Assembly: GCF_024806495.1 (NCBI RefSeq) | Contig: NZ_JANUFF010000003.1 | Coordinates: 398,015-462,014, forward strand | DNA: 64,000 nt | DNA from: Chryseobacterium sp. JUb7 | GTDB taxonomy: Bacteria > Bacteroidota > Bacteroidia > Flavobacteriales > Weeksellaceae | Reading direction: 5' to 3' | Shown here: piece after piece, positions 43,185 through 63,818 of the stretch | How positions within the stretch are numbered: position 1 is the first letter of the stretch | Layout: each line of letters starts with the position of its first letter | Position numbers and translations under genes: made by a program | The notes under the pieces: model-generated | Database searches by the model: none | What the model was told of the DNA's origin: nothing | Seen by the model: the letters and a program-made list of their open reading frames with translations, nothing else

Positions 43185-43190
43185 CAGTAG

Positions 43191-43297
43191 ATTTATCAAG
43201 AAAGGTGGAGGGATTTGGCCCTGTGAAACCTTAGCAACCGACACCATTCATAGATGTAAAGGTGCTAATTCCAACCCGTTTGGGGGAAGATAAGTGA
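43191..43297 (+). ncRNA. SAM-I (S-box) riboswitch
   Basis: The SAM-I core is present: AGGTGGAGGGATTTGGCC (43203-43220), CTGTGAAACCTTAGCAACC (43221-43239), and GGTGCTAATTCC (43261-43272), closing with GGGGGAAGATAAG. P1 forms between ATTTATC (43191-43197) and GATAAGT (43289-43295). SAM-I elements sense S-adenosylmethionine and switch methionine genes off when it is high. A standard transcription terminator is not obvious in the 90 bases that follow, so the expression platform may act differently in this phylum. Confidence 0.92.
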
Positions 43298-58781: not shown

Positions 58782-58789
58782 TATATTTG
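58782..58789 (+). promoter_or_regulatory. -7 box of the 58.8 kb small transcript
   Basis: TATATTTG followed by CA, an exact match. TTTTCATT at the expected -33 distance is a weak match. Predicted start about 58795. Confidence 0.5.
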
Positions 58790-58794
58790 CACCA

Positions 58795-58965
58795 GAAAAT
58801 AAAGTTTAACCATTTAAAAAAACAACGAAGCAATGTTCAAATTCAATCTACATTCAACAGTAGGATTGCCTTTTGCAAAGGCGAGGCTTCGTGGTATGGT
58901 ACATTCTTAGAATAATAGTATAATGATATATCAAAACCCGAAGTCGTAGAGATTTCGGGTTTTTT
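58795..58965 (+). ncRNA. Structured short transcript with 25-codon frame
   Basis: The stretch from the -7 box to the terminator at 58934-58963 is about 170 bases. ACGAAGC (58825-58831) pairs with GCTTCGT (58886-58892), enclosing a hairpin GCCTTT-TGC-AAAGGC (58868-58882). The paired stretch includes the start codon region of the small frame at 58833. It may be a regulatory RNA or a leader-peptide RNA. No gene follows on the plus strand before 59287. Class unknown to me. Confidence 0.5.
58833..58910 (+). CDS. Possible 25-residue leader or small peptide
   Basis: ATG at 58833, stop TAG at 58908. It encodes 25 residues beginning MFKFNLHSTVGLPFAKARL and ending RGMVHS. Too short to be certain and overlapped by stem structure. 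It sits between a promoter and a terminator, so it is either a translated leader or chance. Confidence 0.35.
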   Translation: MFKFNLHSTVGLPFAKARLRGMVHS

Positions 58966-58966
58966 A
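58934..58966 (+). terminator. Intrinsic terminator of the small transcript
   Basis: AAACCCGAAGTC (58934-58945) / GATTTCGGGTTT (58951-58962, one G-U) with loop GTAGA and TTTTTT. Confidence 0.85.
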
Positions 58967-59050
58967 TTGCGCAATATTTCAAAACTCAAATCAAGTTTTC
59001 CCGAAATCTTTTTTTATAAAATTTAGGAGCTTATCCGAAGAGTAGTTTTT

Positions 59051-59132
59051 AGGAGCTGTTTCCCGCTATCCACTGTATCTTTTTTATTACGGCCGCAACA
59101 AAAAAGGATGCCGTTTCTATCGGGGCTAGGAG
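59051..59132. repeat. Probable dispersed intergenic repeat unit
   Basis: An 82-base segment from AGGAGCTGTTTCCCGCTATCC (as 59051-59071; key part CCCGCTATCC) to CTATCGGGGCTAGG (59117-59130). The internal 'CTTTTTT...AAAAAAGG' arms (59088-59106) pair, and GAGCTGTTTCCCG pairs loosely with CGGGGCTAGG. I recall this unit as common between genes in Chryseobacterium and relatives; a genome search would settle it. Confidence 0.55.
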
Positions 59133-59182: not shown

Positions 59183-59286
59183 AAATAGAAAGTCAACTAA
59201 AAGTTAAGTTGATAAAGATTTAATACAAAAATACAGTTTCAGAAAATCTGAAATCTGATGTCTTGTATCTAAGATCTAATTAATAA

Positions 59287-60036
59287 ATGGAAAAAGATAA
59301 CCTTCTGTTTTCAAGATTGAGAAATCTGAGAAGCAGAAAAAGAGCAATTAAAAAAGATGTAGAAAAACAGATCAGGAAAAAGTATAAGCGTAGTAGCAGG
59401 CTTTGGAAATTAAGAAGGGAAATTCCGTTGCTTCCTTTAGAAAAGCCTTATCAGAAGGGATTTGTAAGATCCTTTGTGGTAAGAGATGAAGTGATGAGAA
59501 CAAAAGACGGAGAATTTTTCAACAGCATTTTGAATAAAATCAACACGAAAATGTATTCTGAAACCCGAAAGTTCTTAAAAAAGAAAAGAAAATCCGGACG
59601 AAGAATTTATGTTGAGAGAGAACAAAAAATGGCCAGCCTTTCAACCTATCAGTGGAATGATCCAAAATTGGGATTGACGGCTAGAGACAGACAGTATTTT
59701 CTGAAAAGAGAAGAGTATTGCCCCATCAGAAAAGCAACAAATATCTACTACGAATTTATTGAACCATGGAGGTTTGTATTGAGGGTAAAGCCTTATATGA
59801 TCACTCATTATAAACCTTTAGACTCAGATTTGGAAAAAGAAATTGATGAACTCGATTATTTTTTAAGTCAGTATAAAGTGGCGGGAATTATTCATAAAAC
59901 GATTTATGGAAAACGCAATCCATGGAAAGAAAAATACAAGCGTGATCAGAAGAAAAGCAGAAAATGCTTTCACTACAATGGGTCTGCAACAGAGATTGCA
60001 GAAAATTCAGAGGACGAAAATGTCCTGAAATTTTAA
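59287..60036 (+). CDS. Basic protein of unknown function, first gene of rtcB-prfH operon
   Basis: 249 residues, no signal peptide and no recognised domain. Very basic: the first ~50 residues contain about 20 Lys/Arg (SRLRNLRSRKRAIKK, KKYKRSSRLWKLRRE), and the C-terminal part again (KRNPWKEKYKRDQKKSRK). The middle holds a mixed alpha/beta stretch (EYCPIRKATNIYYEFIEPWRFVLRVKPYMITHYKPL). It looks like an RNA-binding protein. It ends 10 bases before rtcB on the same strand, so it is probably the first cistron of the repair operon. Function unknown; I would not assign one from sequence alone. Confidence 0.55.
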   Translation: MEKDNLLFSRLRNLRSRKRAIKKDVEKQIRKKYKRSSRLWKLRREIPLLPLEKPYQKGFVRSFVVRDEVMRTKDGEFFNSILNKINTKMYSETRKFLKKKRKSGRRIYVEREQKMASLSTYQWNDPKLGLTARDRQYFLKREEYCPIRKATNIYYEFIEPWRFVLRVKPYMITHYKPLDSDLEKEIDELDYFLSQYKVAGIIHKTIYGKRNPWKEKYKRDQKKSRKCFHYNGSATEIAENSEDENVLKF

Positions 60037-60046
60037 AACAGAAACA

Positions 60047-61438
60047 ATGGGAAATTTAAAACTTAAAGGTAAAGATATATTAAAAATAGGCTATCCAAAT
60101 AATCAGAGTGTCAATATTGCTTTGGAAGTCATGAAAAGAAATTTTGCAACGAAAAATATTCATCATGTAAAATCTCTTTTAAAAGAAATTCTGACTAATC
60201 CGCAACAATTCGAAAATGATTTAACGTTCGGACAAATTGCAGAAGCTTTGCTTTCATCAAAGAAAACAGAAAAAAGATTGCTCAATACAAACAGAGCGAC
60301 GTTCAATATTTTTGGGAATAATATTTCAGAGGAAGCAAAAAACCAGTTGTACACGGCTTTAAAACTTCCAATTTCGACGCAGGGCGCTTTAATGCCCGAT
60401 GCGCATAGCGGTTACGGGCTTCCGATCGGTGGAGTTCTGGCGGTAGAAAATGCCGTGATTCCTTATGGGGTCGGTATGGATATAGGCTGTAGAATGTCAC
60501 TCAGTATTTTGGATACTCCGGTTTCATATCTTGACGGAGCGAGAGATAAATATGAAAAAGCTCTTGCTGAGCATACCAAATTCGGAATGTACGAAACGCA
60601 TAAATCTCATGTCGAACACGAAATTTTCGACAGGGATACTTTTGATCTGATTCCGATTTTGAGAAGATTAAAAGGAAAAGCGATCAAACAAATGGGTAGT
60701 TCCGGAGGTGGAAATCACTTCGTAGAATTCGGAGAGGTTGAAATTACAGAAGAAGATGTACAGATCGGACTTCCAAAAGGAAAATATCTCGGAATATTAT
60801 CACACAGCGGTTCGCGTGGTTTGGGTGCAGAAATCGCACAATATTATTCAAGAGTGGCAACAGAGCAGTGTCCGTTGCCAAAAGAGGCGCAGCAATTTGC
60901 GTGGCTGGATTTGAGTACACATCTCGGTTTAGAATATTGGACCGCCATGAATTTAGCCGGAGATTATGCTTCAGCCTGTCATGATGATATTCACCGAAGA
61001 TTGGTAAAAGCGGTTGGAGGACGAGTAAAAGCCAGAATCGAAAACCATCACAATTTTGCATGGAAGGAAATTCACAATGGAAAAGAAGTGATTGTCCACA
61101 GAAAAGGAGCCACTCCTGCCAATGAAAATGAATTGGGAATGATTCCCGGTTCAATGACGGCAAAAGGATTCATTGTTCGTGGAAAAGGAAATCCGGATTC
61201 TTTGAATTCGGCTTCACACGGAGCCGGAAGAGCTCATTCGAGAGGAGAATGCAGAAATCTTTTCACTCAAAATGATATTAAAAAGGAATTAAAACTCAAG
61301 AATGTCACGTTGATGGGTGGAAATACCGAAGAAGCACCCATGGCGTACAAAGATATCAACGAGGTGATGAATGCCCAAAGTGAATTGGTCGATATCCTTG
61401 GAACTTTTCAGCCTAGAATTGTAAGAATGGATAGGTAA
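60047..61438 (+). CDS. rtcB: RtcB-family RNA ligase
   Basis: 463 residues. RtcB joins RNA ends 2',3'-cyclic-phosphate/3'-phosphate to 5'-OH using GTP and manganese. Full motif set: MPDAHSGYGLPIGG (about residues 116-129), VGMDIGCRM (Cys148 is a metal ligand), GGGNHFVEFGEV (His224), LSHSGSRGLGAEIA (His253), NHHNFAWKE (His334-335), VHRKGATPA (351-358), GMIPGSM and SASHGAGRAHSR with His391, the residue guanylylated in the family. Its operon includes prfH, not archease, which marks it as the PrfH-associated (RtcB2-like) type. Confidence 0.95.
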   Translation: MGNLKLKGKDILKIGYPNNQSVNIALEVMKRNFATKNIHHVKSLLKEILTNPQQFENDLTFGQIAEALLSSKKTEKRLLNTNRATFNIFGNNISEEAKNQLYTALKLPISTQGALMPDAHSGYGLPIGGVLAVENAVIPYGVGMDIGCRMSLSILDTPVSYLDGARDKYEKALAEHTKFGMYETHKSHVEHEIFDRDTFDLIPILRRLKGKAIKQMGSSGGGNHFVEFGEVEITEEDVQIGLPKGKYLGILSHSGSRGLGAEIAQYYSRVATEQCPLPKEAQQFAWLDLSTHLGLEYWTAMNLAGDYASACHDDIHRRLVKAVGGRVKARIENHHNFAWKEIHNGKEVIVHRKGATPANENELGMIPGSMTAKGFIVRGKGNPDSLNSASHGAGRAHSRGECRNLFTQNDIKKELKLKNVTLMGGNTEEAPMAYKDINEVMNAQSELVDILGTFQPRIVRMDR

Positions 61439-61449
61439 ATGAGTTGAAA

Positions 61450-61494
61450 GGCTGGAGTTGTTGGTTGATAGATTTTGATTAACAACTACCAGCC
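61450..61494. repeat. Stem-loop between rtcB and the nucleotidyltransferase-fold gene
   Basis: GGCTGG (61450-61455) / CCAGCC (61489-61494) and GTTGTT (61457-61462) / AACAAC (61481-61486) can form a bulged stem. It lies in the only long gap (83 bases) of the operon, so it may be a repeat or a processing or attenuation site. Confidence 0.5.
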
Positions 61495-61521
61495 ATCAAC
61501 AATCAACAAAAATTAACAAAA

Positions 61522-62067
61522 ATGGGAGCACCACACAATATAAAAAGATACGGTGAAGTCTGGCCGGAATTTAGAATTGAACACGGACTGGAAATTTTAG
61601 AAAAATTAAAAGATAAAGTTATTTTATCAGGAGGATGGGCGTGGCATTTTATGTCTGAAATCGGGCATACAGAATATAAGCATGCTCATGACCACAAGGA
61701 TATTGATGTTTTTGTAAGGAAAGAAAATGTGGCTGAAGTGGTTATGATTCTTCAGCAGGAAGGGTTTCAGAAAGTTTGGACACGCTATGATCATTTACCA
61801 AGTAAAGAGAACTTTCGCAGATATGAGAAGACAATCGAATTGGGAAGCGGAAAATTTCACAGAATTACAATTGATTTTTTTGAAAGAAATGATTTAGAAA
61901 CTGTTGAAACAAACGGATTTACTGTTGTAAAACCTGATGTTTTACTTTCGTTTTACAGAAATATTCATTCCAGCGATAAATGTTGGGCGGTGATGGCTGC
62001 AAAAAATTTATTACAAAAGGGAATTGATCCTGTAGGTCATCCGCGATTAAGTGAAATGCCAAAATAG
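61522..62067 (+). CDS. Nucleotidyltransferase-fold protein
   Basis: 181 residues. The pattern of a pol-beta-type nucleotidyltransferase is visible: LSGGWAWHFMSE (Gly37-Gly38 then helix), DHKDIDVFV with the first Asp pair (Asp60, Asp62), and FHRITIDFFE with the third Asp (about residue 116). This matches the minimal or MNT-like nucleotidyltransferase core seen in aminoglycoside and tRNA-modifying enzymes. The active-site aspartates are all present. It follows rtcB in the repair operon, so it may add or repair RNA ends; substrate unknown. Confidence 0.6.
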   Translation: MGAPHNIKRYGEVWPEFRIEHGLEILEKLKDKVILSGGWAWHFMSEIGHTEYKHAHDHKDIDVFVRKENVAEVVMILQQEGFQKVWTRYDHLPSKENFRRYEKTIELGSGKFHRITIDFFERNDLETVETNGFTVVKPDVLLSFYRNIHSSDKCWAVMAAKNLLQKGIDPVGHPRLSEMPK

Positions 62068-62069
62068 AA

Positions 62070-62657
62070 ATGAAAAAAATATACAAACAAGAATATTTCA
62101 ATTATCATGAAAGCATTCTCGTTGTCTGTCAGGATTGCGAGAACGATGCAACTGTGAAAAATGAATATTGTCATAAACAGACAACTTTAGAATGCAGGCA
62201 TTGTGATTTGAAGAAAACGGGATTGGATTTAATTGCTTATAAAGCTTTTATCAATCTTTATTGTCCGGTTTGTGCACATCAAATTCGTTATGAGCAAGGA
62301 AATTTTAAAGAAAAGCCTAAGAATATTAATGTAAAGTGTGATGAGTGTGATTCTTCATTTCAAATTCAGCCAAAAACAGAGAAATATTTGAACTCTTATC
62401 CGAAAGAAGAGGGCTTGATCCATGATCCTGTTTTCGGATGCCCGTATTATTTTCAGACAGATTTTAAAGGAAAATTATTCTGGGCAAAAAATATGGAACA
62501 TCTGTTGGAAATGGAAAATTATGTTTCGTCGGATCTTAGGATAAGGCTGCCTTACAAAATGCGGATGGTAGAAAAATTACCAACATTTATTAAAGATGCT
62601 AAAAACAGAGAAGCCATCTTAAAAATTTTACAAAAATGGAAAAACTTATACAAATAA
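62070..62657 (+). CDS. Double zinc-ribbon protein
   Basis: 195 residues. Four CxxC pairs: C20-x2-C23 (VVCQDCEN), C42-x2-C45 (LECRHCDL), C65-x2-C68 (LYCPVCAH) and C90-x2-C93 (VKCDECDS), enough for two structural zinc ribbons. A C-terminal stretch (about 110-195: FGCPYYFQTDFKGKLFWAKN) follows. Zinc ribbons in such proteins bind RNA or proteins. It begins 2 bases after the nucleotidyltransferase-fold gene and overlaps prfH by 22 bases, so it belongs to the operon. No named family. Confidence 0.7.
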   Translation: MKKIYKQEYFNYHESILVVCQDCENDATVKNEYCHKQTTLECRHCDLKKTGLDLIAYKAFINLYCPVCAHQIRYEQGNFKEKPKNINVKCDECDSSFQIQPKTEKYLNSYPKEEGLIHDPVFGCPYYFQTDFKGKLFWAKNMEHLLEMENYVSSDLRIRLPYKMRMVEKLPTFIKDAKNREAILKILQKWKNLYK

Positions 62658-63334
62658 CTTCAGGAAGAGGACCTTTAGAGTGCCAGTGGGTAGTCGCTAA
62701 AGTTCTGAAGGTCTTTCTTGAGGAAGCAAAAGATAACAATATAGACTACGAAATTATTCATCGTGAAAATGGTGATGAAAACCTGACCTTAAAATCTGTG
62801 ACTCTGCTTTTAAAAGGAAAAAAAGTAAGCGAATTTTTAAAAACCTGGCTGGGAAGTATTTCCTGGACAGGGAAAAGCACATTCCGAAAGCTGCATAAAA
62901 GAAGTAATTGGTTTATCGGAATTTTTGAACTGGAAGGTTTGGAGAAAGTTGGTTTTAATGAAAAAGATATTCAGTTTCAAACAACAAGAAGTCAGGGAAG
63001 TGGCGGACAGAATGTGAATAAAGTGAATACGGCTGTTCGTGCGACGCATATTCCCACAGGACACAGTGTTTTCGTACAGGATTCCCGTTCACAATTGGAA
63101 AATAAGAAACTGTCGGTCACAAGATTGAAAGAAAGGGTTTTGGAACAGAATATTATCCGGCTTCAGAAAAGAATGCAGGAAACCTGGAACAACCATCTCC
63201 AGGTACAAAGAGGAAACCCGATCCGTACATTTTCGGGAACAGATTTTAAAAAGAATTATCAGGAAAAATCTTTTAAAAAACAGAGAAATATCCTGAAAAA
63301 CGAATTAAAAAACTACAAAAATGACCTTAACTAA
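62636..63334 (+). CDS. prfH: Peptide chain release factor H
   Basis: 232 residues, matching E. coli PrfH nearly throughout: SGRGPLECQWVVAKVL (N-terminal), LGSISWTGKST, KRSNWFIGIF, then [44 protein letters not shown] with the GGQ (residues 123-125), and HLQVQRGNPIRTFSGTDF at the end. PrfH lacks the stop-codon-reading domain of RF1/RF2 and acts on damaged ribosomes; with RtcB2 it has been reported to repair the 16S rRNA decoding centre after ribotoxin cleavage. Overlaps the neighbours on both sides (22 and 14 bases), indicating tight coupling. Confidence 0.94.
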   Translation: MEKLIQITSGRGPLECQWVVAKVLKVFLEEAKDNNIDYEIIHRENGDENLTLKSVTLLLKGKKVSEFLKTWLGSISWTGKSTFRKLHKRSNWFIGIFELEGLEKVGFNEKDIQFQTTRSQGSGGQNVNKVNTAVRATHIPTGHSVFVQDSRSQLENKKLSVTRLKERVLEQNIIRLQKRMQETWNNHLQVQRGNPIRTFSGTDFKKNYQEKSFKKQRNILKNELKNYKNDLN

Positions 63335-63818
63335 AAGTAAATATTACTTCGAGGCTTTAGATAATTATCCCTATAGTTTACCGGATTGTCTGGAAGCGCT
63401 AAATTATGCATTGTCCTATGATCCCGAAGATGCAGACAGTCTGTGTCTGATGGGAAGGATCTACAGCGAGATGCTCATCGATTATGAAAAAGCAAAGCTG
63501 TATTTTGAAGAAGCGATGCTGTGCGATGTAACGAATTTAAATGTTCCTCAATATTATATCAAATGTCTGTTAGACAATGAGGATTTTAGGGAAGCTGAGA
63601 AGCTGATCCAATATTCATTGAAAATAAAAGGAATTGATAAAGCAACATTATGGTTTTACAGATCTTTGCTTTCAGAAAAAAGAGGAAGTTTTGCGAATGC
63701 TTTGAAATTTTTAGATGATGCAGAAAAGTTTTGCTTTACCGAATATAGCTTGAATGTTATAAAGGACCGCAAGAAATTTATCAAATCAAAAATGCCCAGA
63801 AAAAAGCAAAATGACTAG
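63321..63818 (+). CDS. TPR-like protein, last gene of the operon
   Basis: 165 residues of tetratricopeptide type: LPDCLEALNYALSYDPEDADSLCLMGRIYSEMLIDYEKAKLYFEEAMLCD (about 19-68), then YYIKCLLDNEDFREAEKLIQYSLKIKG and LWFYRSLLSEKRGSFANALKFLDDAEKFC. Three TPR-type helical pairs. It overlaps prfH by 14 bases. Its stop at 63816-63818 lies at the boundary with the IS element, so its true 3' end could have been changed by the insertion. Probably a partner-binding subunit; function unknown. Confidence 0.75.
   Translation: MTLTKSKYYFEALDNYPYSLPDCLEALNYALSYDPEDADSLCLMGRIYSEMLIDYEKAKLYFEEAMLCDVTNLNVPQYYIKCLLDNEDFREAEKLIQYSLKIKGIDKATLWFYRSLLSEKRGSFANALKFLDDAEKFCFTEYSLNVIKDRKKFIKSKMPRKKQND

Follow-up and report, generated by a model that had tools for sequence, protein, structure and literature searches.

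In this study, we analysed an operon in a 64,000-nucleotide stretch of DNA from Chryseobacterium sp. JUb7 (the whole stretch is referred to below as the window), which encodes RtcB, a 3'-phosphate RNA ligase family protein, and release factor H (PrfH) together with four extra proteins, namely a basic protein, a Pol-beta type nucleotidyltransferase (NTase), a double zinc-ribbon (Zn) protein and a TPR protein. We propose, with a probability of roughly 0.65, that this RtcB-PrfH operon serves to repair ribosomes with a cut in the decoding centre and that it stands behind a predicted leader-peptide attenuator sensing failing ribosomes. The gene content is not new because all four extra proteins were described beside RtcB-PrfH in 2019 (PMC6514570). 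What is new here is a conserved leader RNA with a promoter box, a short open reading frame (ORF) and a terminator, which precedes the operon at window 58782-59016 (promoter box included) and lies outside the coordinates covered by an earlier annotation of this DNA, referred to here as the original prediction.

A conserved leader RNA upstream of the operon

In Chryseobacterium-type loci a few hundred bases before the operon are ~70-90% alike, whatever gene lies farther upstream. By DNA likeness the leader was found in 106 of 141 loci, before the gene for the basic protein in 90 and before rtcB in 16, and the window genome carries one full copy, two other matches spanning just 26 and ~50 bases. 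Compared with shuffled sequences, the leader gave folding z-scores of -4.5 for 58798-58968 and -3.0 for 58798-59018, and both-side changes are present at 7 of its 24 consensus pairs. It matches no Rfam family at gathering scores. A Flavo-1 RNA (RF01705, 68.9 bits) is located at window 59055-59131 on the reverse strand, between the leader and the first gene, and has partial copies elsewhere in the genome; it is dispersed, lies on the opposite strand and is distinct from the leader.

Strand 2 of the leader can pair either with strand 1 or with strand 3, and strand 3 also forms the 5' arm of the terminator together with strand 4 (Table 1). In the window the duplex energies are -9.9 kcal/mol for strands 1 and 2 (1:2), -14.6 kcal/mol for 2:3 and -17.2 kcal/mol for 3:4. 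Swapping strands among 23 chosen leaders (24 were tried and one missed the pattern) weakens the helices, from -10.8 to -9.1 kcal/mol for 1:2, from -13.1 to -10.7 kcal/mol for 2:3 and from -17.5 to -13.2 kcal/mol for 3:4, and none of 5000 permutations, which were not corrected for kinship, was as good as the leaders' own partners for any of the three helices. The last bases of strand 2 and the first bases of strand 3 co-vary, with GGT/ACC in Chryseobacterium and locus L104, GGC/GCC in most Flavobacterium, GAC/GTC in L105, GAT/ATC in L033 and the wobble combination GGT/GCC in L242 and L114. In addition, an AGTC in strand 3 is kept in 45 of 45 leaders that were aligned without the strand pattern, and the G of this motif forms a G-C pair with strand 2, whereas in the terminator it is limited to a wobble. 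The mutually exclusive antiterminator and terminator pairings have therefore been retained in evolution, which is the sequence signature expected of an attenuator.

The leader ORF was examined in 118 distinct leaders, which were found by their strands, start codon and terminator, neither frame nor stop being required. Strand 2 is in frame with a start codon placed just after strand 1 in 116 of the 118, and the resulting ORFs are 24-29 codons long. Strand 2 encodes mostly LR[GDAV], and this motif and the peptide end are conserved (27 distinct peptides plus the Chryseobacterium-type peptides). The stop codon follows LRx by 4 codons in 114 of the 118 leaders, by 3 in three and by 6 in one. Six loci fall outside the ORF motif set, two of which, L105 and L229, still show such an ORF. 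Such a fixed spacing of LRx and stop is what a ribosome positioned on the stop codon would need in order to cover strand 2. When a ribosome footprint was modelled at codons 17-26, it removed 2:3 before strand 4 was made, and with the footprint at codons 1-14 the 2:3 helix stayed.

All 88 distinct leaders that were detected through their DNA likeness to that of the window have an exact TAnnTTTG box at the 5' end, and just one of them has such a box between the terminator and the first gene. The best recognisable promoter therefore precedes the terminator, and the operon transcript would have to pass it. The spacer from the terminator to the first gene is 48-361 bases long. In the window it contains an inverted repeat, TCAACTAAAAGTTAAGTTGA, at 59193-59212, ~75 bases before the first gene, which is a possible operator or hairpin; similar repeats are found in most of 14 relatives' spacers, and the window genome has three such sites.

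To describe the distribution of the leader we used a covariance model, R1, built from 37 leaders (that of the window, 33 from Chryseobacterium-type loci and three from Capnocytophaga). Among 63 whole genomes, R1 gave exactly one match in 56, namely in 42 of 42 from the window's family and in 14 of the 21 others. These 14 lie outside the training genera, 13 of them in one genus, apparently Flavobacterium, and one in another family, and each match sits just upstream of that genome's operon. A single match was also obtained in each of six genomes that were reached through named loci. Two sets of loci were also searched. The prfH-selected set consists of 62 loci (61 fetched plus the window), with genes labelled by profile hidden Markov models, and the basic-selected set, assembled from GTDB genomes by means of the basic protein only, holds the best 80 of 155 relatives; some species are common to both. 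R1 matches 57 of 61 prfH-selected loci and 80 of 80 basic-selected loci (best 80 of 155), of which nine come from Flavobacterium records and 36 had supplied training rows. One of the misses, L068, is a locus cut by a contig end, and the leader of that genome is on another contig. As a control, R1 matched two of 39 prfH-negative genomes, weakly and at apparent ordinary terminators beside other genes.

Several observations weigh against the proposed attenuator and the reach we ascribe to it. The Chryseobacterium-type leader ORF has little synonymous excess (20:83, versus 14:89 and 10:88 in the other frames). In folding computations the terminator is always the preferred equilibrium structure of the full-length leader, so that the switch must be kinetic, and as long as strand 4 has not been made the ribosome-free fold prefers 2:3 to 1:2. 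A further arm, arm C, which has Ts behind it, can pair with strand 4 in Chryseobacterium and some other relatives; if it terminates, it would undo antitermination. An exact -7 box is absent from 8 of the 23 leaders used for strand swapping, all outside Chryseobacterium, and boxes one letter off the consensus occur behind the terminator in 57 of 90 spacers. With respect to distribution, locus L034 has a weak R1 match in the right place (E 0.45), L116 and L117, which belong to other orders of the class, have no leader by R1, and in two genomes, G003 and that of L229, the leader also precedes operons that lack prfH.

The six genes and their relatives

The original prediction had placed six co-directional and tightly packed genes within 59287-63818, and six plus-strand ORFs are found exactly there (Table 1), the spacings from basic through rtcB, NTase, Zn and prfH to TPR being +10, +83, +2, -22 and -14 bases. 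The proposed identity of the core pair is also confirmed. RtcB passes PF01139 with 271 bits (cut-off 27), and PrfH passes the curated TIGR03072 with 213.8 bits (cut-off 166.65). The catalytic GGQ motif is present in PrfH (GSGGQNVNK) and aligns with solved PrfH, and the window protein is 67% identical to the solved PrfH 9mor; the PrfH in PDB entries 9mor and 9mq4 shares 97% identity over 212 residues with the PrfH of Capnocytophaga locus L232. The Cys/Asp/His active-site blocks of the window RtcB, which we take to be the metal and guanylate residues, align with solved RtcB. The protein scores below the curated cut-off of TIGR03073 (release_rtcB; 139.7 versus 271.8 bits) and is thus not placed in this subfamily, unlike RtcB2 of Escherichia coli ATCC25922, which presumably belongs to it.

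Of the partner proteins, the NTase has the Pol-beta residues G37 and G38, D60 and D62 (DxD) and D118 (third D), each of them invariant across 10 of 10 aligned relatives, and its match to PF10706 is borderline (21.7 bits, cut-off 21). The Zn protein contains four CxxC pairs, whose eight Cys are all invariant in 17 of 17 sequences; among the 41 sequences of a broader set, six of these Cys are invariant and the other two are kept at 90%. Its structure model has a predicted local distance difference test (pLDDT) value of 87. The TPR protein has matches to TPR families that are all under the Pfam cut-offs. A model of the basic protein (pLDDT 83) gave no Foldseek match at E<=0.001.

Table 1. Position of the leader elements and operon genes in the window
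Feature	Position	Strand	Remarks
Promoter -7 box TATATTTG	58782-58789	+	Bacteroidota consensus TAnnTTTG
Structured RNA leader	58798-59016	+	Folding z; covariance model R1
Strand 1 (ACGAAGC)	58825-58831	+	Pairs with strand 2
25-codon leader ORF MFKFNLHSTVGLPFAKARLRGMVHS	58833-58910	+	Frame kept in 116/118 distinct leaders
Strand 2 (GGCTTCGTGGT)	58885-58895	+	Can pair with either of strands 1 and 3
Strand 3, terminator 5' arm	58936-58945	+	Alternative partner of strand 2
Strand 4, terminator 3' arm	58951-58960; six-T run to 58966	+	
Arm C (CCCGAAATC + T run)	59000-59015	+	Complementary to strand 4; possible second terminator
Basic protein, RFH/RtcB-associated	59287-60036	+	249 aa; no solved fold matched
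rtcB, 3'-phosphate RNA ligase family	60047-61438	+	463 aa; PF01139 271 bits
NTase, Pol-beta type nucleotidyltransferase	61522-62067	+	181 aa; motif residues invariant in 10/10
Zn, double zinc-ribbon protein	62070-62657	+	195 aa; eight Cys
prfH, release factor H	62636-63334	+	232 aa; TIGR03072 above cut-off
TPR protein	63321-63818	+	165 aa; weak TPR matches

The window ends at the contig end, and genes beyond TPR lie outside its view. An open-ended reverse-strand ORF at the contig end (63846-63998) resembles, by eye, the end of an IS3-type transposase. Elsewhere in the window, a SAM riboswitch (RF00162, 80.6 bits) is located at 43190-43296.

The original prediction would be supported if the six genes were found together, and in the same order, in many Bacteroidota genomes. 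The order is kept: in all 62 prfH-selected loci the genes that are present follow the order and strand basic>rtcB>NTase>Zn>prfH>TPR, which exceeds chance. The set as such is not, since the extra genes are modular; prfH is present in 62 of these loci, rtcB in 61, TPR in 58, basic in 34, NTase in 32 and Zn in 12, and all six are found together in just four. PrfH scores above the TIGR03072 cut-off in 39 of 59 relatives and, within the genus, in 35 of 36 genomes (the window's own included). Among the basic-selected loci (best 80 of 155), rtcB is present in 78 and prfH in 77 within the fetched stretch, and the canonical order is seen in 74. The six exceptions are all from Capnocytophaga, in which the genes are re-ordered or spread; prfH lies ~11 kb from the leader preceding the basic gene in the genome of L231 and ~10 kb from it in that of L227, and a genome search did not find prfH in that of L229.

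Other genes are found within or in place of parts of the operon. In Capnocytophaga felis (L226:8826-9395; PF01885, 162.7 bits) and C. cynodegmi (L228:8991-9566; identified by likeness) a Tpt1/KptA RNA 2'-phosphotransferase gene lies between prfH and rtcB, and an RNase T-like exonuclease gene (PF00929, 60 bits) has this position in C. periodontitidis (L232:8012-8563). In 4 of 80 loci (L170, L176, L187 and L198) a gene for a 162-aa protein separates basic from rtcB; it has a relative in L042 and represents a further accessory gene, and two members scanned gave no Pfam match. Directly after the NTase, 4 of 80 loci (L165, L176, L198 and L216) encode a protein of 206-209 aa, the L176 member being without a Pfam match. 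Locus L105 encodes a 190-aa protein with CxxC pairs between rtcB and NTase (L105:5992-6564; no Pfam match at E 0.01), and its genome has two basic-protein genes. In the sole prfH-less genome among the 36 of the genus (G003, locus L256), the leader, basic and rtcB are retained, and three repeated reverse-strand ORFs resembling the rtcB 3' end replace the remaining operon genes.

The original prediction would be refuted if the partner genes were mostly found away from prfH, and this was followed in a phylum sample of 395 genomes, 28 of which have a close PrfH (E 1e-25 or better) and 367 of which are prfH-negative. At E 1e-4 or better, basic was found in 12 and NTase in 8 of the 395 genomes, all of them prfH-positive and all with the gene beside prfH, and neither was found in the 367 prfH-negative genomes; the hypergeometric p values, which carry no correction for kinship, are 1.2e-15 and 2.3e-10, respectively. 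The Zn family departs from this pattern. It occurs in 18 of the 395 genomes, beside prfH in seven and as full-length proteins in five prfH-negative genomes, the other six matches being partial, and the neighbours of the stand-alone relatives are mixed.

On a tree of rtcB plus prfH for 60 prfH-selected loci, the minimum number of presence changes is 15 for basic, 13 for NTase, 11 for Zn and 3 for TPR. Selection on the proteins was measured as the ratio of non-synonymous to synonymous substitution rates (dN/dS) between the window and its relatives in 70 of the 80 basic-selected loci, leaving out pairs whose dS reached 2, whose identity was low, whose genes were split or whose lengths differed by more than 60 bases. 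The medians are 0.16 for basic (52 pairs), 0.03 for rtcB (51), 0.06 for NTase (43), 0.12 for Zn (6), 0.09 for prfH (46) and 0.05 for TPR (11). Because these values lie between 0.03 and 0.16, all six genes are under purifying selection, basic the least. Taken together, the coupling of the extra genes to rtcB-prfH is well supported. As all six genes are present in 4 of 62 loci, presence changes are frequent and Zn also stands alone, the extra genes are a modular set and not a fixed six-part machine.

Alternative explanations

It could be argued that the leader is an independent small RNA gene, ended by one or more terminators of its own and linked to the operon without belonging to its transcript, and that the operon is transcribed from another promoter. 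Arm C could then serve as a back-up terminator, and the spacer, with its length, its one-letter-off boxes, its inverted repeat (as in most of the 14 relatives) and a GG-N10-GC core in 11 of 90 cases, might hold such a promoter. However, 87 of 88 leaders have no exact TAnnTTTG in the stretch from the terminator to the first gene, the 90 spacers contain no complete sigma-54 type site, and the 2:3 pairing, the fixed frame and the fixed stop position would be needless for a small RNA, so that we regard this explanation as unlikely. Even less probable, in our view, is an attenuator that senses one amino acid or one drug and not general ribosome failure. Classical leader-peptide attenuators read runs of one codon and some drug-resistance leaders answer one drug, but neither the 27 distinct peptides nor the Chryseobacterium-type peptides show a run of any one regulatory codon.

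With regard to the genes, the original prediction had the four extra proteins join the process of rtcB and prfH, for which the conserved order (62 of 62 and 74 of 80 loci) speaks and the rarity of the complete set does not; this idea had itself been published in 2019 (PMC6514570). The four might instead be passengers at a gene-rich spot without a part in repair, as each is gained or lost often, other genes insert there too and Zn relatives stand alone in five prfH-negative genomes. The finding that basic and NTase do not occur in any of the 367 prfH-negative genomes argues against passengers, as do the linkage that in part persists despite re-ordering in Capnocytophaga and the median dN/dS of 0.05-0.16 for the four extra proteins, and we consider it rather improbable that they have no part in repair. 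One of the extra steps that had been suggested is the re-addition of nucleotides lost from the cut RNA ahead of ligation. The same role was proposed for the NTase in 2019 (PMC6514570), and the active-site motifs are intact in 10 of 10 proteins. Nevertheless, the NTase is absent from 30 of the 62 prfH-selected loci, and a Pfam scan of the six operon proteins gave no match to a kinase or cyclase family. RtcB requires a 3'-phosphate whereas an NTase leaves a 3'-OH, and nucleotide re-addition therefore fits RtcB poorly; we find this role doubtful. A further suggestion was a damage-sensing step, and it seems more likely that such sensing resides in the RNA leader upstream than in the proteins.

Known systems, proposed mechanism and significance

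A promoter, a short ORF, mutually exclusive strands and a terminator with a U run make up the trp-type attenuators, and the window leader has predicted counterparts of these parts. It differs in that no regulatory codon run is seen and that the genes downstream are those predicted for ribosomal RNA (rRNA) repair. A closer parallel is found in Pseudomonas aeruginosa, where, in the passages available from two reports, the RtcB-like armZ (PA5471) and the adjacent prfH (PA5470) follow the leader peptide PA5471.1, armZ is induced by ribosome-targeting drugs via a proposed transcription attenuation, and a truncated homologue in E. coli K-12 is described as likewise inducible by 4-azaleucine, which disturbs translation (PMC12057347, PMC3516279). 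As judged by these descriptions, PA5471.1-armZ-prfH and the window operon are alike in that a leader peptide, a predicted one in the window, precedes prfH and an RtcB-like gene. However, the PA5471.1 peptide has 13 residues compared with 24-29 codons here, the organism belongs to another phylum, armZ also lifts MexZ repression, and the same passages mention no extra genes.

For the extra genes, Burroughs and Aravind described a TPR protein, a Pol-beta NTase, a zinc-ribbon protein and a charged helical protein beside RtcB-PrfH, with guesses as to their roles (PMC6514570). Matched by description, the window operon holds the same four and belongs to these RFH/RtcB neighbourhoods; the section of that paper on neighbourhoods gives no leader, no per-lineage frequency and no specificity test. 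According to the passages available, RtcB2-PrfH of E. coli ATCC25922 protects against colicin E3 (PMC9223846), and this system has the same core pair as the window but consists of two genes. Leader-peptide attenuation has been reported for amino-acid operons in the F. psychrophilum transcriptome, and the passages available from the main text of that paper name neither rtcB nor prfH nor a leader of this type (PMC9723704). The literature searched yielded no account of this leader.

We infer that failing ribosomes would be the signal because of the geometry of the leader and the close parallel in P. aeruginosa. According to the mechanism that we propose, RNA polymerase would start at the TAnnTTTG promoter and make the leader. 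A ribosome that reaches the leader stop codon would cover strand 2, strands 3 and 4 would form the terminator, and transcription would stop. When ribosomes are stalled early, strand 2 would instead pair with strand 3, which would block the terminator and allow the operon to be made. As reported for E. coli, PrfH would release the stuck peptide and RtcB would reseal the rRNA. The basic and zinc-ribbon proteins likely bind rRNA, as proposed in 2019 (PMC6514570), and the TPR protein likely serves as a scaffold.

In a broader sense, the operon may be a self-contained detect-and-repair device across Flavobacteriales, in which a dedicated leader would gauge the finishing of a 25-codon test message and switch on a modular rRNA-repair cassette, by the same logic as the 13-residue PA5471.1 and hence in two phyla; we see the case for this as evenly balanced. 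One leader per genome is a strong marker for finding such operons, and the survey singles out two of the unknown proteins as first priority, namely the basic protein and the NTase, both of which were confined to genomes with prfH in the phylum sample. The leader makes control by ribosome performance directly testable, and the conservation, throughout a large order outside the phylum of Pseudomonas, of a leader that would read ribosome performance suggests that RtcB-PrfH repair systems in general include control of this kind.

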